From a virus: a stretch of DNA of 41,155 nt. Shown in pieces: positions 1 through 41,096 of this stretch. The notes beneath the pieces are model-generated. The model ran no database searches and had not been told where the DNA came from. It was given only the letters and a program-made list of their open reading frames with translations. Made by a program: the position numbers and the translations under genes. Numbering within the stretch: the first letter of the stretch is position 1; the number at the start of each line of letters is the position of its first letter. Location: positions 1 through 41,155 of the IMG/VR virus record IMGVR_UViG_3300037200_000007; one strand, given 5' to 3'.

Positions 1-472
1 TGAAGTATGCGTGAGTGTTGCAAGGAGTATCTTTCGTGATGGTTAAAGTGTCTGATACATTCCACATTGCCAGAACCACTTGCCTATCATCCGGGTTTTT
101 ACGCAGCTTGTCCGCAATAATAGATAATTGATCCCCACAGGCGAATTGTTTTCTCCACCTGTAGCCGTATGCTCCGTAGAAAGTTTTACCATCGTCACTA
201 TAATTCCGTATGTTTTTTGCGAACATTGCCGGGAACTCAACATCATTGCGCCCTGCCAGCATCCACATAGATTCCATAAGGTGAAAAAACGGGTTAGCGT
301 CGCGCTCCTTATTGAACAATACGCGCTTACAGGGATTAAGGTATGTAATGGTAGTAGGCGCGGGGGCGGCAAGCACCTCGCCATTTCGGCTATTTTGCTT
401 TATGCCCTTGCTCAGCAATACTTGTAAGGCCGTTGGCAGGGCTTCATTCACTGTATCTTTTGTAATTTCCAT
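1..472 (-). CDS. dUMP hydroxymethylase / thymidylate synthase-like protein (C-terminus cut by window edge)
   Basis: The first 157 residues of a thymidylate-synthase-fold protein are present; the rest lies beyond the left edge. Visible family landmarks are NPFFHLMESMWMLAG (about 60-74), YGAYGYRWR (about 99-107), the DQL...LRKNPDDRQ segment (about 114-131) and AMWNVSD, followed by TPCNTH with the presumed catalytic Cys at about 151. The start ATG lies 2 bases after the stop of the preceding gene and is preceded by AGGAG. Thymidylate synthases methylate dUMP using methylene-tetrahydrofolate; phage relatives make 5-hydroxymethyl-dUMP instead. The two activities cannot be told apart from this half. 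The two genes transcribed just before it resemble 5-hmdU DNA modification proteins, so hydroxymethylase is the preferred reading. It would supply hmdU for the phage DNA. Confidence 0.85.
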   Translation of the reverse strand, partial: MEITKDTVNEALPTALQVLLSKGIKQNSRNGEVLAAPAPTTITYLNPCKRVLFNKERDANPFFHLMESMWMLAGRNDVEFPAMFAKNIRNYSDDGKTFYGAYGYRWRKQFACGDQLSIIADKLRKNPDDRQVVLAMWNVSDTLTITKDTPCNTHAYF

Positions 473-474
473 AC

Positions 475-1314
475 TTATACTCCTGGATAAAGTTGTTTTG
501 GACGACCTTCACCTAACCTTACACGCTCATACTTATCGAACTCACAAAGACAGTTCTGTAAGTTCTGAGCATCAAGTTTAGGAATCGAAGTATTCTTGGT
601 GGCGAGAATATTGTCTAGAACCCCATGCAAGTCGGCCAGCATATTTCTGAATGTTGTTTCATTCATTGCCTTATGGGGGTCAAGTTTATAGACTCGGTTG
701 AGGCCGCGCTTAGACCCAGGTCCAGACACCACGAAAGTCCACCAGTCATCGGCAGTTTCAAGCGGCGGCACGGCTTTAAGATCAGCGACAACTTGCCCGG
801 TTAGGAAGCTACCGAGACCCATACATTGAATTAATCGCATGGCGTAGCTGCCAAGTAATTCCCCTTTTTGCGGCCTTAAGTTTAGCCGTTGCGCCCATAG
901 TGGGGTTAGTACCCTCGCTGCTATGTAGGTCGGCTTGTCCATAGCAACCCCGTTTGTGGAAACGATATATGCAGGGTTGAAGATCCTAGCCCCCACGCTT
1001 GCTCTGAGTTCCAGGGCTTGTATGAACTTCGTAAAGTCCCACTCTTTTACATAGCCTACGGCTTTTATAGAATCGGGTTCGTTAAGCAAGCGGGCGATAA
1101 CAATATTGAACCACAGGTCGGGATCCCCTTTATGCTTTTCAGTGATATTGCTTCTGATCCATTTTGTAACTGTATCATTTTCCCTGTGAACATTACAGAA
1201 CCTATAGGATTGAAAAATTGGATCTTTGCTCCAAGGTTTGTCTTCTCCATTGGTTTTTCTAACATATATGTTGTAGCGCTCCTGTATGAATAAGAAAAAG
1301 TCCGCTAATCTCAT
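475..1314 (-). CDS. DNA base hypermodification protein, 5-hmdU DNA kinase helical-domain / aGPT-pyrophosphorylase-like
   Basis: A 279-residue soluble protein. Its N-terminal motif reads FFLFIQERYNIYVRK (about 6-20), PWSKDPIFQSYRFCNVHRE (about 27-45) and a following WI. I recognise this from the helical domain of phage 5-hydroxymethyl-dU DNA kinases and the related alpha-glutamyl/putrescinyl-thymine pyrophosphorylases (DNA-glycosylase-like helical superfamily). These proteins act on hmdU already inside DNA: the hydroxyl is activated with pyrophosphate and then replaced by an amino acid or amine. The start overlaps the end of the upstream P-loop kinase gene by four bases (ATGA), and the next gene is the dUMP hydroxymethylase, so all three are translationally linked. 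The domain assignment is firm by motif. Whether it is the kinase partner or the transferase step is open. Confidence 0.75.
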   Translation of the reverse strand: MRLADFFLFIQERYNIYVRKTNGEDKPWSKDPIFQSYRFCNVHRENDTVTKWIRSNITEKHKGDPDLWFNIVIARLLNEPDSIKAVGYVKEWDFTKFIQALELRASVGARIFNPAYIVSTNGVAMDKPTYIAARVLTPLWAQRLNLRPQKGELLGSYAMRLIQCMGLGSFLTGQVVADLKAVPPLETADDWWTFVVSGPGSKRGLNRVYKLDPHKAMNETTFRNMLADLHGVLDNILATKNTSIPKLDAQNLQNCLCEFDKYERVRLGEGRPKQLYPGV

Positions 1315-1901
1315 ACGCCCCCTACTAACATCAATAAGTCCGCAGCTAGTTCGGTAGGGCTGAGTTTATGATCAAACATTTCAACTCTATGTCCTTGTTC
1401 TCCGGCGATACGCGCTGCTCCAGCACAACCTCTGTAAGTAGATCGCATAGTTCTTTCTGGGTCAAAAGGGTTTTCGTTTCCACTATTCTTACGACGTTCC
1501 AGGACTCGTTGAACACAGACGTCAAAGGGCGTATCCATAAAACCGTAGATCCAGTTTCCAAATTGGCCTTCAGACTTACTATATTCGCCGATAGCTCCAT
1601 ATGTTTTCCCCGTTATTAGACCTTCAAATATTACATGGTCTTTATTTTCGGCGTAGTGCTTTATAAGGGCAAGCCGTTTTTCCTTGTCGCTTATTGTATC
1701 CATGCCGCCGCAAGAGGTTTCGTAACTTCCCAGTAAATACACAGTAAAGTCGTACTTAAGAAAGTACATTTGATAAGCACTCGGTTTTTTCTTACTTATT
1801 GCAGCTTCCTGAATGGGGGTAACTTTGTCGGCGATTTTTAGAAGTTCGCGAACCATTGTGGTCTTACCGCTGCCGTTGCATCCGCCGATTTTAATTATCA
1901 T
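1311..1901 (-). CDS. P-loop kinase, probable 5-hmdU DNA kinase
   Basis: A 196-residue P-loop NTPase. The Walker A motif GGCNGSGKTT is at about 6-15. A GSYETSCGGMDT stretch follows at about 58-69, then an acidic FEGL at about 92-95, and an Arg-rich RVLERRK lid-like segment at about 132-138. The CGGMDT plus FEGL combination fits the small kinases found in phage thymidine hypermodification clusters, which phosphorylate 5-hydroxymethyl-dU in DNA with ATP. In some phages the kinase and the helical domain are fused; here they are separate genes overlapping by ATGA. A ribosome site (AAGGAG) precedes the ATG. A generic nucleotide or polynucleotide kinase is the alternative, but the neighbours on the 3' side argue for the modification role. 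Confidence 0.7.
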   Translation of the reverse strand: MIIKIGGCNGSGKTTMVRELLKIADKVTPIQEAAISKKKPSAYQMYFLKYDFTVYLLGSYETSCGGMDTISDKEKRLALIKHYAENKDHVIFEGLITGKTYGAIGEYSKSEGQFGNWIYGFMDTPFDVCVQRVLERRKNSGNENPFDPERTMRSTYRGCAGAARIAGEQGHRVEMFDHKLSPTELAADLLMLVGGV

Positions 1902-1969: not shown

Positions 1970-2227
1970 TTAGACAGCGATGTGTTCGCTTTCAACCCAA
2001 GCGTCGATATATTTCAGCTTGTGGCCGCTGTTGTAATAGTCACCCATTGTCTTGCATTTCAGCAAGTCGTCAAAGGCTTTAGCACGACCGCTACCTTCGC
2101 GGTGTGGATTTTCTTTGTTTTTAATGGTGATTTTATGGTTCTCAGCGTACTTGCGCTTCGCACCTTCAACTTTTTCGCCTTTTTCCTTTTCAGGTTTCGG
2201 GGCTTTCTTAGTTTCTTCTTTAGCCAT
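1970..2227 (-). CDS. Small basic NPH-motif protein, paralogue A
   Basis: An 85-residue lysine-rich protein. The N-terminal third (about 1-30) is a low-complexity Lys/Glu tail. The C-terminal half holds KNKENPHREGS (about 36-46), RAKAFDDLLKCKTMGDY and LKYIDAW. The same pattern occurs in the proteins at 12830-13132 and 16597-16899, so this is one of three paralogues. The start is placed at the ATG preceded by AAGGAG (2227); a longer frame reading upstream lacks such a site. The family resembles small phage and proteobacterial proteins with an N-P-[HK]-[RK] core that I know only as uncharacterised. A DNA- or RNA-binding role is inferred from charge alone. Confidence 0.8.
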   Translation of the reverse strand: MAKEETKKAPKPEKEKGEKVEGAKRKYAENHKITIKNKENPHREGSGRAKAFDDLLKCKTMGDYYNSGHKLKYIDAWVESEHIAV

Positions 2228-2246
2228 AGTTAGTCTCCTTCTTGTT

Positions 2247-2302
2247 ATGATTGAAAGTAAAGTCGAGAGTTTCAACATATAATGCCTTTTCCTGACTGTA
2301 AA
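2247..2302 (-). promoter_or_regulatory. Candidate promoter(s) for the small basic protein and hypermodification genes
   Basis: In the 78-base gap after the SNF2 helicase gene, the leftward strand carries TTTACA, 17 bases, then TATGTT (2302 to 2274). It also carries TTGAAA, 17 bases, then AATCAT (2275 to 2247). Both are sigma70-like matches with correct spacing. The first shares its TTTACA and 17-base spacing with candidates at 8757, 12742 and 16361. The gap is unusually long for this block, where most genes overlap, which supports a promoter here. Confidence 0.35.
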
Positions 2303-2305
2303 GTC

Positions 2306-3781
2306 TTATTTCCGTTGTTTTATCAATGCGTATTTTCTGAGGGCGTTCATAAAGTCTGTTTGCACTTGCTTCTTACCATACAGCACGGATAGCATTACTT
2401 CATCTATAGTACCCTCAGCTATTATATGGTGAACCATTATTGATTTATGCTTGGAACCTTGCCTTGCAATCCGCTTGATAAATTGATCATATAACTCGTA
2501 GTTCCACGTGAGGGAGTGAAATATAATAGTGTTGCCTGATCCTTGCAGGTTAAGGCCATGACCCATAGCTTGAGGGTGACCGAGTAATACTGGAATACTG
2601 CCGTTATTCCATGCTTTTTCAATTTCGATACTGGTCTTAACACTCGCTCCACCTCCAAGCACAGGCGTATTCTTTCCAAGGGCTTTAAGTAATCTTTCTT
2701 TGTCGTGGGCAAATTCATAAGATATAAGGCAGGGCTTACCTTGCAACTCTTCCACAATATCCAAGACTGCTTCAGTTTTTTCAGCATGTACTTCTCTCCA
2801 TTCATTAGATTTTACAATACGCATACTATCTTCATCAAACTCTGGGTCTAGATATATTCCCCCATTAGCGATTTGTCTACACTTAATACTCGCCGCCGCC
2901 GCACTAACCGCCGATATTATTTTCTCATCGCTAAATATGGAAAACATTTCCTTCTCCATTTCCTCGTATGCTTTTCTCGCATCGCCGGGTAACTCTACCG
3001 TCACCTTATTGTAGTTGATGTGAGGTAACTCCAGATAGTCCTTTGCGTCCATGCGTATGACTTTATTCTTTATACGTTCCTCTATACGGTCGGCGCTACC
3101 CGGCTTTATCTCGTACTTACTATAGGCTCCCATCTTAATATCGTAGAAGTATTCGCGCCTGTACCAAGTAATATATTCCCCCAAAGCTTCGCCCATATCA
3201 ACGATATACATCTGCCCGAAAAGGTCTAGTAATCCATTCGGCGTCGGGCTTCCAGTAAGTATGTATCTGCGCTTGAACATGGGAAGTATCTTGCGTATAA
3301 TTTTGAAGCGCTGAGTTTTTGTGCGTTTGAACTTACTTGATTCATCAACTATAAGACAGTCAATTTTCATAGCCTTAACCAGCGCCTTGTTCTTATCGCT
3401 AAATAACCACGCCAGCCCTTCCGGGTTTATAAGAAAGAAGTCAACATCCTGCCTCGCCGCTTCGGCCTTTTTGCTGCCGTGCAATATCGCACAAGTCATA
3501 TCCTTAAAATTAGACCACTTTTTAGCCTCATAAGGCCATACCATATGGCATACCCGCATAGGGGCTACTATAAGGGTTCGCTGTATTAACCCCTTGGCTC
3601 GCAGTTGCTTTATAACCGCTAGGCTAATACTGGTCTTACCTAGGCCGGGGTCTAAAAACGCGCCAGCCCCGCCCCTGGCTACCATGAACTTCGCAGTCTT
3701 AAGTTGGTATGCGTGAGGTATCCATTCCTCTAATTTGGAGCTGCTTGAGAATGGCGATTTTTGCTTCTTTGACATTGTCAT
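2306..3781 (-). CDS. SNF2-type DEAD/DEAH helicase
   Basis: A 491-residue superfamily 2 ATPase. Visible motifs in order are the Q-like HAYQ (about 23-26), Walker A DPGLGKTS (about 44-51), the DESS box in place of DEAH (about 146-149), motif III TGSPTPNG (about 176-183), GHPQAMGHGLNLQ in the second RecA lobe, and motif VI QFIKRIARQGS near the C-terminus. These are the landmarks of phage SNF2/DEAD-like helicases, which translocate on DNA with ATP and are common in phage replication modules. It starts 83 bases inside the VRR-NUC gene, so the two are translationally coupled; a weak ribosome site leaves two ATGs three residues apart as possible starts. Its role in recombination, replication or restriction avoidance cannot be set from sequence. 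Confidence 0.9.
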   Translation of the reverse strand: MTMSKKQKSPFSSSSKLEEWIPHAYQLKTAKFMVARGGAGAFLDPGLGKTSISLAVIKQLRAKGLIQRTLIVAPMRVCHMVWPYEAKKWSNFKDMTCAILHGSKKAEAARQDVDFFLINPEGLAWLFSDKNKALVKAMKIDCLIVDESSKFKRTKTQRFKIIRKILPMFKRRYILTGSPTPNGLLDLFGQMYIVDMGEALGEYITWYRREYFYDIKMGAYSKYEIKPGSADRIEERIKNKVIRMDAKDYLELPHINYNKVTVELPGDARKAYEEMEKEMFSIFSDEKIISAVSAAAASIKCRQIANGGIYLDPEFDEDSMRIVKSNEWREVHAEKTEAVLDIVEELQGKPCLISYEFAHDKERLLKALGKNTPVLGGGASVKTSIEIEKAWNNGSIPVLLGHPQAMGHGLNLQGSGNTIIFHSLTWNYELYDQFIKRIARQGSKHKSIMVHHIIAEGTIDEVMLSVLYGKKQVQTDFMNALRKYALIKQRK

Positions 3782-4186: not shown

Positions 4187-4850
4187 ACGGACCTCCCTTG
4201 TGTTTCCCACTCCAAATACAGAAGCGGCAATAGTCCCCCGGCTTGGGATAGAATGCTGTATCGGTCAGCATCGGCTTGGTTTTCGCCAACCACTTCTTCT
4301 TTAGCTTCTCAAAATCGGTGCGTTCGTATTCTTGAACAATTTCCTCACCTTCATCTAAATACCATATTTTTGTAATGACTTTCTTAACCTTGCGATATAG
4401 GACAAAAGCAGCAAGAGCATACAACTCGAGTTGATCCTGATATTGGGAATCAGTTCTACCTGTCTTGTGGTCAATAACGACCATAACATCATCGCACTGG
4501 AAATAGGCAACATCAACCTTGATCCTAAGCCAAGCGTCTCTATCAAACCATCCGGTGCTTCTCCACTTATCTGTAAGAGTCCATTGTTGCTCCAGGTTAG
4601 GGTTAGATTTTTTAAGTTCGGCAAACTCCTGTTTAAATGCTTCCAACTCTTTCGGTAATTTTTTAAGAACTCCACCTGCGTAATCCTCCGCTAATTTATG
4701 AATTAATAATCCCCGATCCATTGCCTTGCTGCCGGGTTCTTTTTGCTTTTTCTCGATATGCTTGTAAAAAGCATACTTCGGACATTTAGTGTAATCCTTG
4801 AAGCGGCTATAGCTCCAAGATTCTAGGCGCTTAAGAGTTTTAATCGGCAT
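4173..4850 (-). CDS. Cas4/RecB-like PD-(D/E)XK nuclease with Fe-S cysteines
   Basis: A 225-residue nuclease. SYSRFKDYTKCP (about 13-24) opens the domain. RGLLIH with H51, KVDVAY with D113, VIDHKTG with D127 and K129, and the QLELY motif (about 140-144) give the RecB-family active site. One cysteine near the N-terminus (C23) and three near the C-terminus (C208, C211, C222) match the iron-sulphur staple of Cas4 and AddB nucleases. Such phage enzymes are exonucleases used in recombination or DNA processing. No CRISPR array or other cas gene is present, so a CRISPR role is not suggested. It overlaps the polymerase gene by 11 bases. Confidence 0.88.
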   Translation of the reverse strand: MPIKTLKRLESWSYSRFKDYTKCPKYAFYKHIEKKQKEPGSKAMDRGLLIHKLAEDYAGGVLKKLPKELEAFKQEFAELKKSNPNLEQQWTLTDKWRSTGWFDRDAWLRIKVDVAYFQCDDVMVVIDHKTGRTDSQYQDQLELYALAAFVLYRKVKKVITKIWYLDEGEEIVQEYERTDFEKLKKKWLAKTKPMLTDTAFYPKPGDYCRFCIWSGKHKGGPCDKG

Positions 4851-6714
4851 ATTTTTCTAAAGCTCCCCAATTTAATCCAGTTCCACCATCAGTTACAACG
4901 GGTACATCTAGCTTAATGCTTTCCATCGCGGCCTTTAGTATTTTCATTTCGCTCTTAACGTGCTTAACAGGCACACTTATATTTATTTCATCGTGTACTG
5001 TCACCATAAAGCGGCCATGCTTCTTCATTTTATTGTAGGCTATTACCGCCCGCTTTGTCATATCCGCCGCGCTGCCTTGAATCAAATAGTTGAACAGCTT
5101 GTACTCAAATGTCATTGTAAATCGGCCATTGTGGAATGGTTCTTCGCAATAATATTCTCTGCCGCCGAAGGTATGTATCGCTTCTCCAGCTTTACCTATT
5201 GATTTTATAGATTGCTCTACATCGCGTATTCCGGGCAGGGCAATCCTATGGGCGGCTTTCAATTCATTGGCTTCGTCTCTACTGCATCCTATATCCTTTG
5301 CTAGGGCGTCTACCCCGTACCCATATATGATGCCGAAGTTCGTAATCTTTACGGCGCGGCGTTCAAAGGTTTTACCTGTTATACGGGTTATTTCATCCCC
5401 TACGAACTTGTGTACGTCAAGTCTTGGATTGGTGCGGTACTCTTCAGCCAATGCCCCGCCTTCATAGTGCGCGGCCAGCCTCAACTCTTGCTGGTTGTAA
5501 TCTCGATGGCAAAAGACCCCTCCTTTGTCGGGTAGAAGGTAAGTACGCATGAGCGGAAGTTCCTTGACTTTAAGATGGTCGGGATGAATGTACCCATCAC
5601 CTTTATCTGTAAAGATCTTCGGTATGTTTTGGAAGTTAGGCGAACTCGATAAGCGACCCGTCCTCGTACCTTTACTCTTTTTATCATTGCTGTATTGTCT
5701 AACTTGATTCCAATTGGTGTGAATGATCCCATTTGTCTCCCTAGCAGTTATGAGCCAAGGCTCCATGAATGTTGAAAGGCAAGTCTGCAACTTAGAACGA
5801 TAGCTCATTGCATTTGCCACGCGGGGGTCGTTAAATTGCTCTGGTTTTAAGTTGTCTTTACTTACGCTCTTCTTACCTGTTGGTGTGAGTACCCAGTCCC
5901 TAACTACGCCGCTTTCTTCAAGCGCAACCGCTAACTCTGCTTTGCTGTCTATATTAAGGTCGGGCTTCTTAAATCGTTTACGCAACCACTTATCGCAAGT
6001 TACCAGCGCCCCTTGATAGTAGACAAAGTCTTCCTCCAATTTGTCTAAGTCTACCCTTATACCCTGCTTTTCATTGTCCAGCAATATAGGCATAAGTTCG
6101 CGCTCTATATCGTAGGCGGTTAGCATATCTGCTTGCTGCACTTGAGGCCACAATAATTTGAACAACTTTTCAGTACGAATTACGTCCCCATTTGCGTACT
6201 CGCCAACAAGTTTACCGGGGGCATAGGCTATATACCGCCCGGTATTGTGTTCAGCCTGTTTACCGGGCATTATTTTAATACCAGCGAGCGGCTGGTTTTG
6301 TAGTAACCAACTTGCAACCGCATCCTGTTCCTCTGGCGGCATGTCCAGCAACCTTTCAGCACTTGGCTTTAAGCTAAAGCTGTCAGCATGGGGGTCAACT
6401 AGAAATAGTAAGTATTGAGTATCATGGTAGCGACTCCAATCCAGGCGCGGCATACCAAGATGCTCTTCGGCCACGTCTATATCAAACTTGGCATTGTGGA
6501 ATAACAGTCCATAGTTGCTATCATAGGCTTGCTTTAAGTTGAAGATACCCACTTCCTTGGAGCAGTTGTTTTCAGCAGTATGTCCCCAAGCAAAGTATTT
6601 CGCGTTCTTGCCCGGCCACTTGATAGATACCCCCACTGGAACTGGAGGATACTTCGGGCGGCGTTCAATACCAAAAGTTTCAAAGTCGATTGTAATGACT
6701 TGTGGGGTTTTCAT
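4840..6714 (-). CDS. Family A DNA polymerase with 3'-5' exonuclease
   Basis: A 624-residue replicative polymerase. The exonuclease domain shows DFETFG (D10, E12), HNAKFD (about 73-78) and YANGD (Y173, D177). The polymerase domain shows motif A RDYNQQELR (D405, E410), motif B RRAVKITNFGIIYG (about 452-465) and motif C VHDE (D575). There is no N-terminal 5' nuclease domain, as expected for phage enzymes of this size. The O-helix position that sets ribose-type discrimination is Phe (F460), as in E. coli Pol I rather than Tyr as in T7. It is expected to copy the phage genome, possibly incorporating 5-hmdUTP made through the dUMP hydroxymethylase at the far end of this block. It overlaps the small upstream gene by four bases. 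Confidence 0.95.
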   Translation of the reverse strand: MKTPQVITIDFETFGIERRPKYPPVPVGVSIKWPGKNAKYFAWGHTAENNCSKEVGIFNLKQAYDSNYGLLFHNAKFDIDVAEEHLGMPRLDWSRYHDTQYLLFLVDPHADSFSLKPSAERLLDMPPEEQDAVASWLLQNQPLAGIKIMPGKQAEHNTGRYIAYAPGKLVGEYANGDVIRTEKLFKLLWPQVQQADMLTAYDIERELMPILLDNEKQGIRVDLDKLEEDFVYYQGALVTCDKWLRKRFKKPDLNIDSKAELAVALEESGVVRDWVLTPTGKKSVSKDNLKPEQFNDPRVANAMSYRSKLQTCLSTFMEPWLITARETNGIIHTNWNQVRQYSNDKKSKGTRTGRLSSSPNFQNIPKIFTDKGDGYIHPDHLKVKELPLMRTYLLPDKGGVFCHRDYNQQELRLAAHYEGGALAEEYRTNPRLDVHKFVGDEITRITGKTFERRAVKITNFGIIYGYGVDALAKDIGCSRDEANELKAAHRIALPGIRDVEQSIKSIGKAGEAIHTFGGREYYCEEPFHNGRFTMTFEYKLFNYLIQGSAADMTKRAVIAYNKMKKHGRFMVTVHDEINISVPVKHVKSEMKILKAAMESIKLDVPVVTDGGTGLNWGALEKYAD

Positions 6715-10572: not shown

Positions 10573-12523
10573 AATATCTACCTACTTCTGCTCCTTTTAA
10601 TAAATCAAAATACTCTATGTCTCTCAATGCCCACAATCGCACTTGTCCTAAACTTGTTCGGCAACCCATACCCTCGGCCACCATATCAAACCCCGCCTTC
10701 TTCATTTCTCGGGCTAAACCATTCGTCGTTACTCTGGTATTCCCAAGGGGGTCAAATATCTTTAGCAGGTCTTCCAACCTCCACAGTTTATATGGATACT
10801 CAGTCTTACCGCTCACAAGCGTCTTATCCATATTATTGACAATATTACTAACCCACATCGCCAAATCGCTCTTACCTATGTTTATCATTTCCCCCTTGAA
10901 TCGGGTGTACATTGCATGACCCCTTGGATTAAAACCTGTAAGGTCAATCCTAAGCAAATGGTCATAAACGGCACTAGGGCCAATGCTATTATACCAAGCG
11001 TTCATTGCCGTATAGTATTCTTCAGACATTGGCGTTCCTCGTACTTCCCAGATAAAAAAGCGTCTATCACCATCCTCAAGAAAAAAGGAGTCAGGGTGAT
11101 TGCTAGTAAAGTAATAGTTAATGCAATCGCGTATTTCATAGCTCCTCACATGCTTAGGATTAAGACGCACAGTTTCTCTGGTTATCATATTCTTTAAGTC
11201 TTCCTTAAAGTGTCTACTATCACCGCTTGTTATTTCGTTACCTACGATAAACTGTTTATTCTCTGCCCATTCATTGAAGCTGGCCGCTAATTCCTTATTT
11301 TCTATCAGTGAAGCATTCTTACCATATATCTTGCGAAGTATCTCGCCAATAAAGCTCTTGCCTGTACCCTTTATCAACCCCCACATCACAACCGCTGAAT
11401 ACATCTTTACTCCGGGGTTCTGTATTGGATACGCGCACCATTGCTCAAACCACTTACGAGCCTCTACATCACCTTTGAATATAAAGTCTAATTGCTTCTG
11501 CCAGAAACTAACCTCGCCCTCCTTTGCCTCGCAACCCCATTCCGGCCAGACATTATAATCGCCGCCTATAAGCTTCACCTTCCCTGGCTCGTACACCACT
11601 TGCTCAACCTCTGACCTACCCGTCCACCTTACCCATTCAGCAGGGGCGCTCTTTTCTATTTTCTTACTTGATTTTTCTGTGTAAACTTCTTCTATATAGC
11701 GCCGATTGGCGTATGCGTGATTAACAAAGTCGTGAACGTTAAGACGCTGGTTGTTCTTCAGTTTCATTATCGTACCGGGGTTCCTTATGTACACGACCTC
11801 TGTATTTAGCTGGTGCAGCATTTCTACGCCCTTATAAGGTACTGCCCCGGCAATAAGCGCATCCACATCGCCATCGGCAACTATATAATCATCCAAACCT
11901 GTTTTATGCTTGCCCTCTTTAGGAATCCTCACTATATGCGGAATCGCTCCTAGCTTCTGTAACAGCTTGCACAATACGACCTCTGCATTAATGATATTTG
12001 GATTACCAGCGGCATCACTATCGTATATGATATATACAGTTCTACCTTCCCACTTTACAAGGCTAAACCACGGCAACGCATCCAGGTTATTTTTGCCGCT
12101 CCGGAACATCCATACTCCGCCTAGCCCCGCCGTCGCAAATCCTGCTTTACAGGCACAAGCGGCCTTTAACTCACCCTCTGTTATTATAAGCGCGGCGCTC
12201 GGGTCCTTCGCTAAGTCAGCCCATTTTATCAGGGGCGGCATATACACTTCGTTGAGTGTGCCTTCTACTTGACAGTAGCGCATCCCTTTGCCGGTTGTCT
12301 TCTTGGCAAAGCCTGTTCGCGTATCTTGTAAATAGCGGACACGATAGAAGTCTGTTGTATTGCCCTGTAAATCGAAATAAGGTATTTTGAATGCGTCGTA
12401 TGGCGGGAGGGTTAGTTCTTTACATTGTTCGCCAGATAAAAGTGAAAAGTGCAGCTTATCCCCATCCTTAATTGAAAGATTACTGGCCTTTAGTTTATCT
12501 GCATATAGTTTCTTAATATCCAC
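10490..12523 (-). CDS. Primase-helicase: TOPRIM plus SF3/D5-like ATPase
   Basis: A 677-residue two-part replication protein. The N-terminal half has a TOPRIM-like (DUF3854-type) domain: IITEGELKA with E116, IIYDSDAAG with D168 and D170, and GLDDYI. The C-terminal half is a DUF5906/D5-like ring helicase: Walker A GLIKGTGKS (about 382-390), FIVGNEI as Walker B region (about 425-431), the polar TSNH (about 473-476) and DRRFF with a finger-like Arg pair (about 486-490). It should prime and unwind at the replication fork. The start is GTG, eight bases after GGAG. It is the first gene of the leftward block, next to the divergent control region. Confidence 0.9.
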   Translation of the reverse strand: MDIKKLYADKLKASNLSIKDGDKLHFSLLSGEQCKELTLPPYDAFKIPYFDLQGNTTDFYRVRYLQDTRTGFAKKTTGKGMRYCQVEGTLNEVYMPPLIKWADLAKDPSAALIITEGELKAACACKAGFATAGLGGVWMFRSGKNNLDALPWFSLVKWEGRTVYIIYDSDAAGNPNIINAEVVLCKLLQKLGAIPHIVRIPKEGKHKTGLDDYIVADGDVDALIAGAVPYKGVEMLHQLNTEVVYIRNPGTIMKLKNNQRLNVHDFVNHAYANRRYIEEVYTEKSSKKIEKSAPAEWVRWTGRSEVEQVVYEPGKVKLIGGDYNVWPEWGCEAKEGEVSFWQKQLDFIFKGDVEARKWFEQWCAYPIQNPGVKMYSAVVMWGLIKGTGKSFIGEILRKIYGKNASLIENKELAASFNEWAENKQFIVGNEITSGDSRHFKEDLKNMITRETVRLNPKHVRSYEIRDCINYYFTSNHPDSFFLEDGDRRFFIWEVRGTPMSEEYYTAMNAWYNSIGPSAVYDHLLRIDLTGFNPRGHAMYTRFKGEMINIGKSDLAMWVSNIVNNMDKTLVSGKTEYPYKLWRLEDLLKIFDPLGNTRVTTNGLAREMKKAGFDMVAEGMGCRTSLGQVRLWALRDIEYFDLLKGAEVGRYYDKERGRPDVSIAASKTKVKKKESNKL

Positions 12524-17724: not shown

Positions 17725-18372
17725 ATGTCAAAGCGTAAATCAACAGCAAAACACCAAAACGCTCGGCCCCTACGCCGCCACGCTCTAATGCGATTAGACG
17801 GGGGCTTGACCGCGATGAACGTCACCTTTATAGACCACTACTTGATGAACGGTTTCAAAGTAAAAGAAGCCGCCATATCAGCAGGCTACTCAGAAACGAA
17901 TGCCGCGAGCGTCGGAAATCGCTTATTAGAAAGACCGAGTATTAAGAAAGCGATAGAAGCTAGACTGGCTACCCGAAAGGAGGAAAACGCCGTTACTGCG
18001 AAAAAGGTTATTGACGAATTCGCCAAGATAGCTTTCGTTAAAATTACAGACATTTTCCAAAATGATGGAAGTGTGAAGCCCCTGGACGAGATACCGGAAG
18101 CGGCATTGGCCGCGCTAGTAGGCGTGGAGCGCCGAGTATCTAGGCATAGCGAAACGATTAACTATCTATTAGCAGACAAGCAAGCCGCGCTGAATTCGTT
18201 GGGTCGCCACTTCGGCCTATTCACAGACAACCTCAATATAAGTGGTAAGATTGATGTAACTAAAATGGACGATGGAGAACTAGATGCACTCATTGGAAAA
18301 TATCTCGCCAAAACAAGCATTAGCAATGCTGGCGATGGAGAAGGAACGGCGTCAGAGGGAAAGGAAGATTAG
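17725..18372 (+). CDS. terS: Terminase small subunit
   Basis: A 215-residue protein of the Terminase_2 type. After a basic tail it shows FIDHYLMNGFKVKEAAISAGYSE (about 34-56), the DNA-binding helix-turn-helix, then GNRLLERPSIKKAIEAR, and near the C-terminus DKQAALNSLGRHFGLF (about 151-166). It recognises phage DNA and hands it to the large subunit for packaging. The ribosome site is weak. It overlaps the large-subunit gene by 89 bases, which is long but usual for coupled terminase genes. It stands first after the large repeat-rich non-coding region. Confidence 0.88.
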   Translation: MSKRKSTAKHQNARPLRRHALMRLDGGLTAMNVTFIDHYLMNGFKVKEAAISAGYSETNAASVGNRLLERPSIKKAIEARLATRKEENAVTAKKVIDEFAKIAFVKITDIFQNDGSVKPLDEIPEAALAALVGVERRVSRHSETINYLLADKQAALNSLGRHFGLFTDNLNISGKIDVTKMDDGELDALIGKYLAKTSISNAGDGEGTASEGKED

Positions 18373-31413: not shown

Positions 31414-32879
31414 ACATACCTCAAGTAAACGCATCCATGCTGCAACCTTCCAGCGATGATAACGGAATGGCGACGCTGTCTCAAATGATGAATATGAAGT
31501 ACATGGGGCAGAGAATGCAACTCGGTCAAGTGCAGTTGCAGGGTGCTCAGATGGAGAATGAAAAGAACAGTATAGAACTAGGGCATACTAAGGCTATTAA
31601 TGATGCAATGATGCAGAATACGGGCAGGGATGAAAATGGGAATGTAACGATAGACCAGCAAGGGGTAAAAAATACTCTCGGAAATACAGATCCTATGGCT
31701 TTGTTTACATACAATAATATGCAGCAGGAAAAGTCTCTGCAGATAGAAAAAATGCAGCAGGATATCATAGGCGCAAAATTGGGAAATAATGCCAAACAAG
31801 CAGACATAGCGCAGCAAACCGGGGTTGCGCTGCTCAACCCAAATCTATCACAGAATGATTATGATAACTATATAAAACCTAAGTTCCAAACTGCTTTTCC
31901 TAACGTACCCGCCCCTGACAGTGTTGGCCAAGCGCAGCAACACGCCCAGACATTAATTGACAGCGGGTCAACAGCGAAAGATAAGGCAGAGGCGCAAGCT
32001 ATTCCTCTTCGTTTACAGCTTCAAGGTGAAGAATTATACAACAAAAAAGTTAGCGACTTTAATGACTCCTATAAAGAAATTGACCAAAAATACTCAGATT
32101 TTATGAATGGTGCTCAGCAAGCGCAGCAAGCAATACAAAGTCTGGCGCAAGCCCGTAAAGGGCTTGGCGGGTACAGCCCCGAAAACGTGGGCGGTCTTGA
32201 ATCTTCCTTCGTAGCTGGTTTGGGCAGAATGGAAATCGGTGGGGTAGTGCGACAAGCATGGATTAGGCAATTATCAGAAGGAGGCAGAAGTACGCCCCAA
32301 GAAGCTGAACTGGCAGTTGATAACTTTATGTCTGGTAAGATGGATAAACTTAACGACAACCAATTTAAGAATCTTTCACAGTACGCTAGCGACTGGGTCA
32401 ATAAAAGATATCAGAATCAACTTGTAGCGGAGCATGGTAGAATAGGAGAAGCCACCAGTCGGGGTTTGAAGCTAGAGGACGTCCATCTAGGTGACGATAA
32501 TCGCCCATCTGTAGAATATCGCAATCCATTCCAAGATTACAAAGGCATCGATGCAATGATAGGCGATAAAAAGGCTGGAATTGCGCCGGGGTCAGGCGCG
32601 ACGTTCAGTAGCGGCGCGATGCCTACTAAATCGCAAGCTCAACCTTTAGCCCCGGCCGATGCACCATTTCCAGGTGAGAAGGGCGGCGAGGTTACTATCA
32701 ATGATGCCCTACAATCGCCCAATGGCGAAATACCCGCGCCAGGAAACGGTGCAGATTTAAGCAAGCAAGGAGCGCCAACTAAGTTGATGCACCCCGATGG
32801 CAAGACTACTGGAACTTTAACCGACCCTAGCCAGCTAAAAGCGTTGCTTGCCAAGGGTTATAAGATAGTGGGGCAATAG
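31407..32879 (+). CDS. P22 gp20-like ejection protein (by position)
   Basis: A 490-residue Gln/Ala/Asn-rich protein, near the 471 of P22 gp20. Long helical runs (MMNMKYMGQRMQLGQVQLQG, KDKAEAQAIPLRLQLQGEEL) and no globular domain I recognise. The C-terminal 90 residues are Pro/Gly-rich linkers. The assignment rests on the order gp7-gp20-gp16 and on composition. Its TAG stop shares a G with the GTG start of the next gene. Confidence 0.65.
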   Translation: MVDIPQVNASMLQPSSDDNGMATLSQMMNMKYMGQRMQLGQVQLQGAQMENEKNSIELGHTKAINDAMMQNTGRDENGNVTIDQQGVKNTLGNTDPMALFTYNNMQQEKSLQIEKMQQDIIGAKLGNNAKQADIAQQTGVALLNPNLSQNDYDNYIKPKFQTAFPNVPAPDSVGQAQQHAQTLIDSGSTAKDKAEAQAIPLRLQLQGEELYNKKVSDFNDSYKEIDQKYSDFMNGAQQAQQAIQSLAQARKGLGGYSPENVGGLESSFVAGLGRMEIGGVVRQAWIRQLSEGGRSTPQEAELAVDNFMSGKMDKLNDNQFKNLSQYASDWVNKRYQNQLVAEHGRIGEATSRGLKLEDVHLGDDNRPSVEYRNPFQDYKGIDAMIGDKKAGIAPGSGATFSSGAMPTKSQAQPLAPADAPFPGEKGGEVTINDALQSPNGEIPAPGNGADLSKQGAPTKLMHPDGKTTGTLTDPSQLKALLAKGYKIVGQ

Positions 32880-35248
32880 TGGACGCAGGATTTACCCCCG
32901 ACGCTGCCCCGGCTCCCGACGCTGCCCCGGCTCCCGACGCAGGATTTACCCCCGACGCCAGCCCAGGAGGAGTGCCAAAGGCTGCAATAGGGGCGCAAGC
33001 AATAGACCCAACGCTTGGTACAGACGATATAGCGAAGTGGGCTGGTATGGCTCCTGATAGAATTAAAGATCTTCGTACAAAAGGCTTAATGGACGATGAT
33101 ACTTTCAAGCCCATACAAGAAAATACTAAGAACAAGCAGGATCTTGAAAAGCTAACTGATAGCAGCGGCGCGGAAAATATCTCCACAGGGTTGTACCGAG
33201 ATTTACTAGGCGCTCACCAAACCTATCTAGGGGTGACGGGCAGCCTAGAAAAAGATCCAACAAAGCGAGCAGCTATCGCAGATCAAATGCGGGTTGTAAA
33301 TGCGAAAATTGATCTTGACAATGCCAATCAAGCCGCTATAAAGGGTAGACCAGTAGGCTCAGAACCATCATTTGGCGAAAACTTAGGCGTAGGCACAGGT
33401 GCAGGATTACCACTGACCGCAGTGACTGGCGTAGGCGGGGTAATAAAGGCGGGGGTAATAAAGGCGGCGGAAGCAGTGGCCCCGGTAGTGGCGAAGCCCT
33501 TGCTTACACAGGTAGGTATTAAAGGCGCGGAAGGCGCGGGTTACGGCGGCGGCGGCGGCGCGGTCGTGGGCGGGTTAACTCCTGAACCAGGCATAGATCC
33601 CGAGAAGGATCCAATTGAACAGTGGTATCAAAAGAAAACTGGTACTGTGTTAAGTGATACAGGTAGCGGCATATTAGGCGGGTTAGTGTTCGGCGGCTTG
33701 TCGCCAATGGTTAAGAAAGGATTAAACGCCGCGTTCGGTACAAATCAAGATACGAATATGGCGGCAACGGCGGCGGAAGGCAAGCAATGGGGAGTCAAGA
33801 TTGCATCTGGCAATAGTGGTCTAACCAACGCTGCCGCTGATAATCTTAATGCGTCGAACTTTAAGCAGAATACTGTCAACTTTAGTTCAATGACCAATGC
33901 TCAGACAAAGGGCTACTACTCAACAGCACTAGCGAATATAAAGAGTTTTCCGAATTATGATCAATTAGTGGCAACGGCTGCTGGCCCGACAGATAAACGT
34001 CAGATAACCGCAAAAGCTATTTTGGATGTAATACACAATTCCCCGAACGATTACCAGTTGGCAAAAGCAAGCAATGATAGTAACCTGCTAAATAAGCAGT
34101 TGTTTGCCGACCAAAAATACGCGCAAGCATCCGCAAAATCTGGAACAACGGAGATACGACGTGATAGAACTTTTGACGCTCTTGATCCTAATACCCCTAG
34201 TAGTGTACTTAACAACGCTCTTTCTCAGCCTACCGAAATAGGAGACCAGGAATTTCAATACGGTAATAATAGAACCACTATTGGCAAGTACCTGACAGAA
34301 GTATCGCAGAGGTTGGATCAACCTACTACTTTTCAAGATTTATCTACCATATCTAAAACTCTAGGAAGCGCGTTTAACCAAATGCCAGATGGGAGTTTGG
34401 CAAAGACTGCCTTATCTGATGTTAGAAAAGCTGTGCTGTCAGATATGAAAAAAGGCGGTCAAGCGAGTGGAGCTTGGCAATCTTATAGCGATGCTAGTGA
34501 CTATACTAGAGATGTAGTTAAGCCTTTGCAAACCAGCGAAGCGTCTAAGTTGATTAATCGCGCGGCTGGCGGCACTCAATCAGCAGTTAACGACGTTTAC
34601 AAAAAGTTTTCTGACTGGACAAACCCCACAGTAGTCAACGAAAGTATCTCTAAAGAAGTATTCGCGCAACTTGATCCAATGGCTCGTAACGCCGTTAAAT
34701 CTGGATTGATAGCACGCGCAGTACAAAGTTCCACTACAAAAGGCGCGGTAAATTACAGGTCATTATCAGACCAACTTACTCAATTACTTAATAAATCAGA
34801 ACTTGACTTCAAGGGTTTCGACAAATTCGATGTGCAGGGGTTGAGTAATGTTGCCGAACATCTGGCTTTACAAAAGGAAGCCGGAGCTGGTAAGTTGCCA
34901 AAGGCAAGCCCCGGTGGGATTATGGCTAAATTCGCAGGGGCGGCGGCGGCAGGTGCAGAGTTTTTTCACATGCTAAGTAGTGGACAGTATGTGCAAGCTG
35001 GCGGTGTAGCTGCTACGGGCGGCGGTACATATGGAATGTATAAGTTCATGCAGAGCGGCAGGGGGCAGAAATTTGTAAGAAGTGCAAGTAGTATGAAGCC
35101 AGGAAGCCCTCAACTGGAGAATTTAATAAATAAGATGGTGACTACAATGTCAATCGGTACAAGTAACACGAAATTGGTTCCTAAGGTAGCAGCGGGAATG
35201 TCCCTGTTTGGTGGGCAAAGTGATCAGCCCATGGAGCAAAGTAAATGA
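32879..35248 (+). CDS. P22 gp16-like ejection protein (by position)
   Basis: A 789-residue protein (P22 gp16: 609), starting at GTG in TAGTG. Residues 2-26 are a tandem Pro-Asp-Ala repeat. Two Gly/Ala-rich hydrophobic stretches (about 180-235 with TGVGGVIKAGVIKAAEAVAP, and about 678-725 with AKFAGAAAAGAEFF) could cross or disturb membranes, fitting an ejection role. No lytic transglycosylase motif is visible. It overlaps the fibre gene by four bases (ATGA). The assignment is from order and composition. Confidence 0.65.
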   Translation: MDAGFTPDAAPAPDAAPAPDAGFTPDASPGGVPKAAIGAQAIDPTLGTDDIAKWAGMAPDRIKDLRTKGLMDDDTFKPIQENTKNKQDLEKLTDSSGAENISTGLYRDLLGAHQTYLGVTGSLEKDPTKRAAIADQMRVVNAKIDLDNANQAAIKGRPVGSEPSFGENLGVGTGAGLPLTAVTGVGGVIKAGVIKAAEAVAPVVAKPLLTQVGIKGAEGAGYGGGGGAVVGGLTPEPGIDPEKDPIEQWYQKKTGTVLSDTGSGILGGLVFGGLSPMVKKGLNAAFGTNQDTNMAATAAEGKQWGVKIASGNSGLTNAAADNLNASNFKQNTVNFSSMTNAQTKGYYSTALANIKSFPNYDQLVATAAGPTDKRQITAKAILDVIHNSPNDYQLAKASNDSNLLNKQLFADQKYAQASAKSGTTEIRRDRTFDALDPNTPSSVLNNALSQPTEIGDQEFQYGNNRTTIGKYLTEVSQRLDQPTTFQDLSTISKTLGSAFNQMPDGSLAKTALSDVRKAVLSDMKKGGQASGAWQSYSDASDYTRDVVKPLQTSEASKLINRAAGGTQSAVNDVYKKFSDWTNPTVVNESISKEVFAQLDPMARNAVKSGLIARAVQSSTTKGAVNYRSLSDQLTQLLNKSELDFKGFDKFDVQGLSNVAEHLALQKEAGAGKLPKASPGGIMAKFAGAAAAGAEFFHMLSSGQYVQAGGVAATGGGTYGMYKFMQSGRGQKFVRSASSMKPGSPQLENLINKMVTTMSIGTSNTKLVPKVAAGMSLFGGQSDQPMEQSK
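32882..32958 (+). repeat. Tandem repeats at the start of the gp16-like gene
   Basis: Two adjacent exact 18-base units (32900-32917, 32918-32935; GACGCTGCCCCGGCTCCC) lie between two exact 23-base copies starting GACGCAGGATTTACC (32882-32904, 32936-32958). Unit length keeps the frame, so slippage would vary the Pro-Asp-Ala repeat number without breaking the gene. Confidence 0.9.
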
Positions 35249-36948
35249 CAACTCCTAATTTCAGCCTTTGCCCCTTTCCAGTATTTCGCGCATTTGACGC
35301 TAATGGCGAGCCGCTGGCCGGGGGGTTACTACATACCTACGCCGCTGGCGGCTCTACGCCCCTCGCCACATATACCGATAGTACGGGCGGCACGGCAAAT
35401 GCGAACCCCGTAGTTTTAGACAGCACAGGAACAGCGAATGTCTGGCTTGGCAACGCTCCATATAAACTGGTTCTTACTGACAGCACCGGCTCCAATACAT
35501 ACTTCACCATTGATAACATCTATAATGGCGTAACGGTGAATTATGGGGCGAGCGTAATCTCCTCTGGAAGCAATGTCGCGCTAACCAATCCGATGTTTAC
35601 GCTGTACGACGTAACGATGACAGCATCCGGTAAAACCTTGACTTTGCCAGCGGCCAATTTAACGAACAGCATACCCCTAGGAGTACCGATCTGGTTTCAC
35701 AATGCTGGTAGTTATTCCTTTGTTATTTACGCGCAAGACGGTTCCACCCTATTGGCAACAGTGCCTGCAGGAGCCACTTATGGGTTGATACTTAATTCTG
35801 CCAGTACCGCAAATGGAACCTGGGACGTTGCTCCTGTACAACCGCCGACTACCTATGGTAGCGACCAAGGGTTGAATAGCAACGGGGCGATTGTGAATAT
35901 CGAAACATTGAATTCCATCAATGCCGCTACATACTCTATAGCAGAGGGTAATCGCGGGGAAATAGCTGTATCAGCGCAGAATTGTGTTTACGCGGCAAAT
36001 CCATCAACACTAGGAGCAGGTTTCAAATTCGCTATCGCCAGCGGCGGCGGTTTTATTGCGACGTTCACCCCGACTAGCGGCATTGTAACGAATGACCTTA
36101 ACGCAAGCCTTTCAACGATAAGTTGGACGGGGGCAGGTCTGGCCGTTGCTTACTTCGAATGCGATGGAACCAATTTCCATATGACCAGTGGTAGCCCGAT
36201 TGCTTTCGGCGCTGCAAGACCTCCTGTTCGCGCACTTAACAACCTTAAAATCACCACTACTGGCGGCAATACCGTGAACATAACGGCAACCGAATTAGTT
36301 CTGCATGATTCAGCGAATGGCGACACTGTAAAACTCACCAGCGTCAGTTGTTCTTACGCTACGGGCAACTCCGGAGCCGGCGGATTAATGAATGGTGCGA
36401 ACAGCCAAGGTACGAGTACATGGTTGAGCGATGTAATCATATACAACCCATCTACCGGAGTAATCGCCGCTATAGGATGTCCTCAATCCTCAGGATACTC
36501 ATCCCCCGTTGCCGGGTATAATTATTTCGTAGTTCTTGGACCTACTCGCGTAAACAGTAGCGGCAATCTTGTCGGCAAGGTGCAAAATGATAAGGATTGG
36601 CAGTATGTAGTCGGCAATAACCTAGCCGCATTGCCGACCATAGCAAGCGGTAGTAGCGGCGACCCCACAGTGCCGACCTGGATAGCTGAATCCGTAAGCG
36701 CGGCGGTAGGCAGCAATACTGCCGAAATTAAGCTGGTACTTTCAGCGCCTAGCGGTAGCGGAATAGCAGCGGTAGCCCCGAATGCAAGTTATGGTGCTTC
36801 ATCTAGTTCATCTAATCCACCACCACTGGTAATCTACAGCACCACTAACAGCGGTAACATTGAATTGATGTTAGAGAGTTCTAGCGTCTACTATGCAAGC
36901 AATAGCTCGAGTGCTATATTACAAGTGCTCGGCGGCAGAGAAACATAA
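35245..36948 (+). CDS. Tail fibre / spike protein with common N-terminal virion-attachment domain
   Basis: A 567-residue beta-rich protein. The first 95 residues, FRAFDANGEPLAGGLLHTYAAG, then TPLATYTDSTGGTANANPVVLD and ANVWLGNAPYKLVLTDSTG, are a very common N-terminal domain of phage tail proteins. The rest is Ser/Thr/Gly-rich with no enzyme motif. The C-terminus is IELMLESSSVYYASNSSS. It probably is a receptor-binding fibre or an adaptor. It overlaps the preceding gene by ATGA. Confidence 0.78.
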   Translation: MTTPNFSLCPFPVFRAFDANGEPLAGGLLHTYAAGGSTPLATYTDSTGGTANANPVVLDSTGTANVWLGNAPYKLVLTDSTGSNTYFTIDNIYNGVTVNYGASVISSGSNVALTNPMFTLYDVTMTASGKTLTLPAANLTNSIPLGVPIWFHNAGSYSFVIYAQDGSTLLATVPAGATYGLILNSASTANGTWDVAPVQPPTTYGSDQGLNSNGAIVNIETLNSINAATYSIAEGNRGEIAVSAQNCVYAANPSTLGAGFKFAIASGGGFIATFTPTSGIVTNDLNASLSTISWTGAGLAVAYFECDGTNFHMTSGSPIAFGAARPPVRALNNLKITTTGGNTVNITATELVLHDSANGDTVKLTSVSCSYATGNSGAGGLMNGANSQGTSTWLSDVIIYNPSTGVIAAIGCPQSSGYSSPVAGYNYFVVLGPTRVNSSGNLVGKVQNDKDWQYVVGNNLAALPTIASGSSGDPTVPTWIAESVSAAVGSNTAEIKLVLSAPSGSGIAAVAPNASYGASSSSSNPPPLVIYSTTNSGNIELMLESSSVYYASNSSSAILQVLGGRET

Positions 36949-40314: not shown

Positions 40315-40683
40315 ATGACAACAGAATGGTTTCAGTGGATTATAGGCGGCCTTGTACTTATATTCGGAGTGGGGTTCTCTGCTTTATGGGTTCTTCAATT
40401 AAGGATGGAGGAACGTTTAACTAAAAGTATGAATGATACAACCAAGGCTTTAAGTGAGTGGATTAAGAAGCATATTTCCGACGATGCAGTTGTCCACACA
40501 GGTATTGAGAAAACTGCCGCCGAAGTGGCGAAGGATCTTCATGCCAGTGAAATGCGTAACCTGAACACCTTCGCTACCAAAAATGATTTAGACCGCATAA
40601 CAACTCACGTTGATGGGGGGTTTAGGGACGTAAACGCTAGACTAGATTTGGTGCTTATGAATATGACCCCCGGTAAGCAATAA
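40315..40683 (+). CDS. Single-span membrane protein, candidate holin
   Basis: A 122-residue protein with one transmembrane helix (about residues 8-28, WIIGGLVLIFGVGFSALWVL), then a charged helical domain (ERLTKSMNDTTKALSEWIKK). It lies directly before the endolysin and shares one base with it. A holin of the single-span kind, or a spanin-like protein, would fit the place. The large cytosolic or periplasmic domain is unusual for a small holin. Confidence 0.6.
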   Translation: MTTEWFQWIIGGLVLIFGVGFSALWVLQLRMEERLTKSMNDTTKALSEWIKKHISDDAVVHTGIEKTAAEVAKDLHASEMRNLNTFATKNDLDRITTHVDGGFRDVNARLDLVLMNMTPGKQ

Positions 40684-41096
40684 TGGATCAGGATACAAAC
40701 GCTCTAGCTTTAACGATGATAGGCGAAGCAAGCAACGGCGGCGCGGGGGCGATGCAGGACGTCGGTTCTACAGTAATGAACCGCATCAAGAAAAAGACTT
40801 GGTATGGTGGCGATGTCTGTACTGTCTGTTACCGAATGAAGGACGGTATCTATCAATACAGTTGTTGGACGCCTGGAACTAAAGACCTTGCCCGAATAAT
40901 GAGAATTACCTTTAGCGACCCCCTTTACGCGCTAGCTACAGCGATTGCCGAAAGTCTAATTAATGGCTCTGCAACCGACCGCACGAGTGGCGCAACGCAC
41001 TACTACGCAAAAACTATTGCTTGCCCCGCATGGGCTAGGGGTTTAACGCCGTGCTACGAAAGTGACGACCAATTATTTTTCAATAATGTCCCGTAA
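40683..41096 (+). CDS. SleB-type cell wall hydrolase, endolysin
   Basis: A 137-residue Hydrolase_2/SleB domain protein. LALTMIGEASNGGAGAM carries the catalytic Glu (E15), and VGSTVMNRI and YSCW follow in the right places. The end reads GATHYYAKTIACPAWA, typical of phage endolysins of this class. It cuts peptidoglycan to free progeny. There is no signal peptide, so a holin is needed, and the gene just upstream is the candidate. Confidence 0.9.
   Translation: MDQDTNALALTMIGEASNGGAGAMQDVGSTVMNRIKKKTWYGGDVCTVCYRMKDGIYQYSCWTPGTKDLARIMRITFSDPLYALATAIAESLINGSATDRTSGATHYYAKTIACPAWARGLTPCYESDDQLFFNNVP

Follow-up and report, generated by a model that had tools for sequence, protein, structure and literature searches.

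The left end of the phage record analyzed here raises two questions: whether three adjoining genes make and decorate 5-hydroxymethyldeoxyuridine (5-hmdU) in phage DNA, and what is contributed by one of their products, HEL, which Pfam names after the kinase of this pathway. The window, by which we mean the whole stretch of DNA analyzed, is 41,155 bp long and is the complete IMG/VR record; there is no sequence to the left of position 1, so no leftward extension is possible. A search with the window HEL gave 80 viral loci (loci are numbered L001 onward), and this comparison bears on the role of the so-called kinase helical domain. The features of the window that are used below are as follows.

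2..472, minus strand: N-terminal 157 aa of a thymidylate synthase (TS)-like protein, putative dUMP hydroxymethylase (phrog_5131, 3e-63; PF00303, 9e-9)
475..1314, minus strand: HEL, PF18723 "HMUDK_hel" protein, 279 aa (1.4e-44)
1311..1901, minus strand: P-loop kinase, predicted 5-hmdU DNA kinase, 196 aa (phrog_800, 8e-17; PF18748, 4.6e-5)
1970..2278, minus strand: small 102-aa open reading frame (ORF) upstream of the kinase, without a convincing Pfam or PHROG match
2306..3781, minus strand: SNF2-type helicase, bordering the exchangeable slot on its left side (PF00176, 1e-20)
4840..6714, minus strand: family A DNA polymerase, also in this operon (PF00476, 3.5e-56)
17725-18372: small terminase (PF03592, 1.9e-30)
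40683-41096: cell-wall hydrolase, right end of the window

The cassette and the phage that carries it

On the minus strand, the genes at the left end are arranged in the order SNF2 helicase, 102-aa ORF, kinase, HEL, and TS-like gene. The three frames named in a preliminary description of this DNA are in place, together with the motif RFCNVHRE (residue 38 of HEL), the P-loop and CGGMDT of the kinase, and the catalytic Cys of the TS. Its statement that the three genes overlap is slightly off, because HEL and TS are 2 nt apart, and holds for kinase and HEL, which share 4 nt. Its proposed profile searches recovered the expected families for HEL and TS, with scores well above chance level; the kinase match is weaker and falls below the cut-off for PF18748.

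The P22-like head that it had predicted is confirmed by profile matches of the portal (PF16510, 1e-175) and the coat (PF11651, 1.5e-46), and both terminase subunits, small and large, are also encoded. The nearest isolate found is Rhodoferax phage P26218, whose portal, coat, and SNF2 helicase (gp13) are 41%, 40%, and 39% identical to those of the window, and which shares the order of polymerase, nuclease, and helicase, a kinase followed by TS, and the P22-like portal and coat. The window is thus a P26218-type podophage with a P22-like head, and the pairing of such a head with such a cassette, which had been taken as an oddity, is already found in this isolate. The 102-aa ORF has weak relatives at the equivalent place in L009 and L020, and the SNF2 helicase flanks the slot in about 50 relatives. 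The polymerase would be expected to copy a modified template.

The TS-like frame is open at position 2, and the record ends just past the catalytic Cys151. Based on synteny with P26218 and other relatives, the missing part would be about 1 to 3 kb and would hold the remainder of TS, followed by an HD gene and, before the lysis module, one to three small genes. Left of TS, relatives mostly have only HD and DUF3310-type genes; further enzymes to the left of position 1, including an ADDT in the missing 1 to 3 kb, are possible. Among viral contigs, the closest HEL is approximately 51% identical to that of the window, so that no relative is near enough to supply the missing sequence.

A hydroxymethylase-type TS and a P-loop kinase

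In the window TS, the residues PC are found at positions 150 and 151, with the Cys aligned with Cys146 of Escherichia coli ThyA (PC-His), and an Ile takes the place of ThyA Trp80. Trp80 is replaced in every phage TS that was aligned, and PCH is changed to PCN in all of them. Loss of Trp80 is a mark of hydroxymethylases, and a specificity Asn is a mark of dUMP use; because the window TS ends early, this Asn can be read only in its complete relatives, where it is kept. The protein is 54% identical to gp58 of Pseudomonas phage M6, and the best PDB match of the M6 TS is the CMP hydroxymethylase MilA. Replacement of Trp80 and the proximity of the M6 enzyme to MilA support the view that the window TS is of the hydroxymethylase type. 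The window thus has the predicted TS-family dUMP hydroxymethylase gene of the M6/ViI-type 5-hmdU cassettes, with the C-terminal half outside the record.

The kinase carries the P-loop GCNGSGKT from residue 7 and CGGMDT at residue 64. As its score against PF18748 (HMUDK_HMUD1) is under Pfam's curated cut-off, its family membership stands on alignment and synteny. Aligned with the L009 kinase it reaches 52%, and with those of L011, L018, M6, Sonora, P26218, and RaNi 24 to 31%, with the P-loop and DTP motifs kept, and it occupies the position equivalent to M6 gp54 and P26218 gp15. We assign it on these grounds as the P-loop 5-hmdU DNA kinase of the M6/ViI-type cassettes. Such kinases phosphorylate 5-hmdU in DNA with a preference for TG/TC and increase resistance to restriction (PMC7653180, PMC6449724). 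Proteins of this group (M6 gp54, PaMx11 gp49, and P26218 gp15) are labeled "terminase small subunit" in phrog_800 and RefSeq. This looks like a propagated misannotation, and the label is doubtful because the real small terminase of the window lies at 17725-18372.

Comparison with known modification systems

Pseudomonas phages of the M6/YuA cluster (gp51 to gp58) resemble the window in having a separate kinase (gp54) and HEL (gp55), then TS (gp58). Pseudomonas phage PaMx11 carries gp46 (PUGT), gp47 (FAD enzyme), gp48 (acetyltransferase), gp49 (kinase), gp50 (HEL), gp51 (TS), and gp52 (HD); its block gp49 to gp52 has the kinase-HEL-TS order of the window and ends with HD, and its HEL is 34% identical to that of the window. 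Sonora has the same gene order as M6, PaMx11, and the window. The separation of kinase and HEL, which the preliminary description had singled out, is therefore ordinary. The differences concern the genes around this core: M6, a siphovirus and not a podophage, adds an ADDT (gp51), a PLP enzyme (gp52), a radical SAM protein (gp53), and Nmad5 (gp56), none of which was identified beside the window cassette, and PaMx11 adds its ADDT (PUGT; PDB 8z2m/8z2n), the FAD enzyme, and the acetyltransferase. In P26218 the order is ADDT (gp14, 5.7e-48), kinase, and TS without HEL; the window encodes HEL, and no ADDT is matched in it. The profile matches, the synteny with M6, PaMx11, and P26218, and the type of the TS support the proposed hmdU pathway: the window carries a genuine member of the hmdU modification systems, and its pathway is already known.

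Two isolates of other groups also carry HEL. Microbacterium phage Golden (39.6 kb) resembles the window in that HEL adjoins a P-loop kinase, a TS is encoded (here elsewhere in the genome), and no ADDT is matched, and differs in that it is an actinophage siphovirus whose kinase belongs to the family Ploopntkinase3, and whose HEL and TS are distant from those of the window. Brevibacterium phage LuckyBarnes (L090) has HEL beside a TS-containing modification operon, as in the window, but with two TAGT glycosyltransferases and no kinase match; HEL, the two TAGTs, and a 517-aa TS lie in a row at 31993-36008. Judged from its genes, LuckyBarnes would be a good candidate for glycosylated hydroxymethyluracil. 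The glucosylation of hydroxymethylcytosine in T-even phages (T4 BGT/AGT; TAGT in T6) likewise has a hydroxymethyl pyrimidine decorated by exchangeable transferases, and in T6-like phages TAGT occupies the place that BGT has in T4 (PMC13390438), but its base is cytosine and no HEL is described, in contrast to the uracil base and the kinase in place of a glycosyltransferase in the window.

Sequence and predicted fold of HEL

HEL belongs clearly to PF18723 (score, 153 bits; cut-off, 25; coverage of profile positions 5 to 277 of 281), its sole profile match; it does not match the ADDT/PUGT profile (PF18724). Thirty columns, many of them polar, are invariant in the alignment of the family. The AlphaFold2 model is confident (pLDDT, 95.3; pTM, 0.91) and mostly helical, so that a Z score near 10 alone is no proof of relation. 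By VIA-align it matches best PUGT, the ADDT-family enzyme of the hmdU pathway (8z2n; Z, 11.2; 221 residues; 4.0 Å), the 8-oxoG glycosylases 3n0u and 3fhg (Z, 10.6), and EndoIII 2abk (Z, 9.0), and the leading rows all belong to a single superfamily or to the queuine salvage DUF2419. Foldseek gave the same two top matches, with E values of only 0.066 to 0.08. The model thus has the overall fold of the HhH DNA glycosylase superfamily, and because the Foldseek E value is just 0.066, the likeness would be one of fold level only. HEL and ADDT (E, 0.13), and HEL and E. coli Nth, are not significantly related by hhalign, and the HEL profile gave only chance-level matches among PDB sequences; the relation therefore rests on fold.

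The stretch GLGSFLTGQVVADLK of HEL was recognized by eye as the HhH motif; in the same manner, K120 of EndoIII falls on the invariant F170 of HEL, and D138 near S197/G198. If this comparison is correct, HEL would have an HhH motif with an invariant Phe in place of the catalytic Lys of EndoIII and an SGPGS loop close to the position of the EndoIII Asp.

Exchange of the decorating enzyme beside HEL and TS

HEL recurs in an operon of polymerase, nuclease, SNF2 helicase, a variable slot, HEL, TS, and HD. The slot contains a kinase, a TAGT (two members match PF20691 at 2e-21 and 4e-20), a GT4-like protein (PF00534, 6e-5, below the cut-off), a radical SAM/SPASM protein, or members of families that match nothing in Pfam. 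Among the last, the model of family c11 (pLDDT, 84) is closest in the PDB to T4 DNA beta-glucosyltransferase (BGT; Foldseek, 3.5e-10); T4 alpha-glucosyltransferase ranks lower in the list.

The presence of a kinase was scored by profile searches on all ORFs. Sixty-five loci contain both HEL and TS; 20 have a kinase, 43 a glycosyltransferase (TAGT, T4 BGT-like, or GT4-like, where family c16 is labeled so by its look alone and c15 by a subthreshold match), none both, and two neither. These two are L010, which has a Pfam TAGT match, and L041, which is only a fragment and has almost the same HEL as L042, a kinase locus. When 50 records were searched whole, 17 contained a kinase, 17 a TAGT, and none both (Fisher P = 1.3e-4), the kinase being absent from all 17 TAGT records; ADDT was found in nine of the 50, all of them with a kinase. 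In 42 out-of-sample HEL clusters the corresponding numbers were 26, 9, and 0 (P = 2.6e-5), and three clusters had a BGT-like enzyme and a kinase together.

A strict rule of either a kinase or any glycosyltransferase held in the 65 loci and was broken in the out-of-sample set by L135 to L137, L138, and L214, which carry a kinase and a BGT-like c11 enzyme alongside HEL and TS and possibly make a doubly decorated base. We therefore retain exclusion for TAGT and kinase only; between kinases and glycosyltransferases in general, the gene content suggests a tendency, not a strict exclusion. On the HEL tree the state changes between kinase and TAGT at least 11 times, and the HELs of L044 and L052 are 73% identical and have different partners, which indicates that the decorating enzyme has been exchanged beside a constant HEL-TS pair. 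HEL and TS thus form a widespread core, beside which the decorating enzyme is swapped.

Several further gene combinations were observed. Radical SAM/SPASM proteins (c9) recur beside glycosyltransferases in HEL-TS cassettes (L006, L007, L019, L026 to L029, L038, L063, L067, L078, and others); perhaps they perform further chemistry on the sugar or the base. A single open frame of L173 (3318-5060) matches the TAGT profile as well as that of c9 and may encode a fusion of radical SAM protein and glycosyltransferase in an hmdU cassette. L004 encodes, between HEL and the BGT-like gene, a 260-aa protein (10819-11601) with a sulfotransferase-like look by eye. In bacterial genomes only four HEL loci were found (L093 to L096; 30 to 48% identity), on metagenome-assembled contigs that are likely prophages or binned phage contigs.

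Alternative explanations

Ordinary nucleotide metabolism, in which the TS would be a standard thymidylate synthase that raises the dTTP supply together with a dNMP kinase, and the DNA stays unmodified, is very improbable. The TS does match Pfam's general TS model, and the kinase weakly matches generic AAA and thymidylate kinase models; against this stand the loss of Trp80 and the change of PCH to PCN in all the aligned phage enzymes, the proximity of the M6 TS to a CMP hydroxymethylase, the strong HEL match, and the presence of the same cassette in M6, whose DNA contains 5-NedU (PMC6449724). The Pfam name implies that HEL is a kinase-specific substrate domain split off a fused kinase. A fused kinase-HEL protein occurs in SP10 (F8WQ30, 637 aa), and HEL adjoins the kinase in the window, M6, PaMx11, and Golden. 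We nevertheless consider this improbable, as the 43 glycosyltransferase loci have no kinase match, no kinase was found in the 17 TAGT records searched whole or in LuckyBarnes, and P26218 has a kinase without HEL. HEL is common to phages of the kinase type and the glycosyltransferase type, and so is probably not a part of the kinase or specific to it; the earlier view of it as such a part is doubtful.

HEL has 30 invariant columns, many of them polar, and could itself be an enzyme. It would then be a transferase, an ADDT paralog that uses some nucleophile to drive off the phosphate of 5-phosphomethyl-dU, or that has hmdU as its substrate, and that stands in for ADDT in this phage. The fold match to PUGT agrees with this, as do the weak match of the PaMx11 HEL to the ADDT profile (0.0059), a similar C-terminal Q..x..LC.F/W motif in HEL and ADDT, the invariant columns, and the complementary occurrence of HEL in the window and ADDT in P26218. 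We regard it as rather unlikely, since ADDT and HEL are both present in M6, PaMx11, Sonora, and Rhizobium phage RHph_TM26, since TAGT phages without a kinase keep HEL where the phosphomethyl substrate would not exist, and since the hhalign comparison with ADDT was not significant. The reading that we favor, at slightly better than even odds, is that HEL is a base-presenting partner shared by different decorating enzymes; the natural fusion in SP10 and the kinase without HEL in P26218 count against it. More tentatively, and a little short of even odds, HEL may serve generally as a partner on 5-hmdU DNA, or be a cryptic transferase, and link the base to interchangeable enzymes, which would be kinases in one group of phages and TAGT, BGT-like, or GT4-like enzymes in another; uncultured phages that have TS, HEL, and a glycosyltransferase would then contain sugar-decorated hmdU, and window-like phages would have phosphorylated hmdU as the final base.

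The predicted final base

ADDT (PF18724) was not found in the 41-kb record, which is incomplete as a phage genome, by a search that finds it in P26218 and M6. We therefore file the window as a kinase-HEL-TS variant and not under the M6-type amino acid pathway. A kinase and HEL without an ADDT match are also present in L003 (44.7 kb), L018 (50.2 kb), L024 (43.8 kb), L042, and L076, and in the isolate Golden. The PDB title of the solved ADDT-family enzyme gives 5-phosphomethyl-dU as its substrate, which makes the pyrophosphorylation mentioned in the preliminary description doubtful. For this class, phosphorylated hmdU is the simplest product, short of a further step by HEL or by an unrecognized enzyme. 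As ADDT was not found, the product of the window is most likely 5-phosphomethyl-dU or a derivative made by HEL; judged from its genes, the cassette likely yields 5-hmdU and 5-phosphomethyl-dU.

We propose, with a probability of roughly 0.7, that the window carries a thymidine modification cassette of a P26218-type podophage in which the kinase acts after TS, HEL serves as a shared base-presenting partner, and the product is phosphorylated. Against it weigh the subthreshold PF18748 match of the kinase, the truncation of TS ahead of the dUMP-specificity Asn, the missing 1 to 3 kb, which could encode an ADDT, and the invariant polar columns of HEL. The TS homolog would make 5-hydroxymethyl-dUMP, which would replace thymidine in phage DNA, either in part or completely; HEL, with its predicted ADDT/HhH glycosylase-like fold, may bind and present the 5-hmdU base; the P-loop kinase, as in its family, would phosphorylate the 5-hydroxymethyl group in DNA; and the final base, 5-phosphomethyl-dU or its HEL-made derivative, would block restriction.

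Implications

What the comparison adds is evidence that HEL is not tied to the kinase, and the expectation that some phages contain glycosylated hydroxymethyluracil. The current Pfam name of HEL is probably too narrow, and if HEL serves kinases and glycosyltransferases alike, the name "HMUDK_hel" misleads annotation. Glycosylated hydroxymethyluracil is best known from eukaryotes, as base J. If the prediction is true, uncultured phages would constitute a large reservoir of base J-like, sugar-decorated hydroxymethyluracil.
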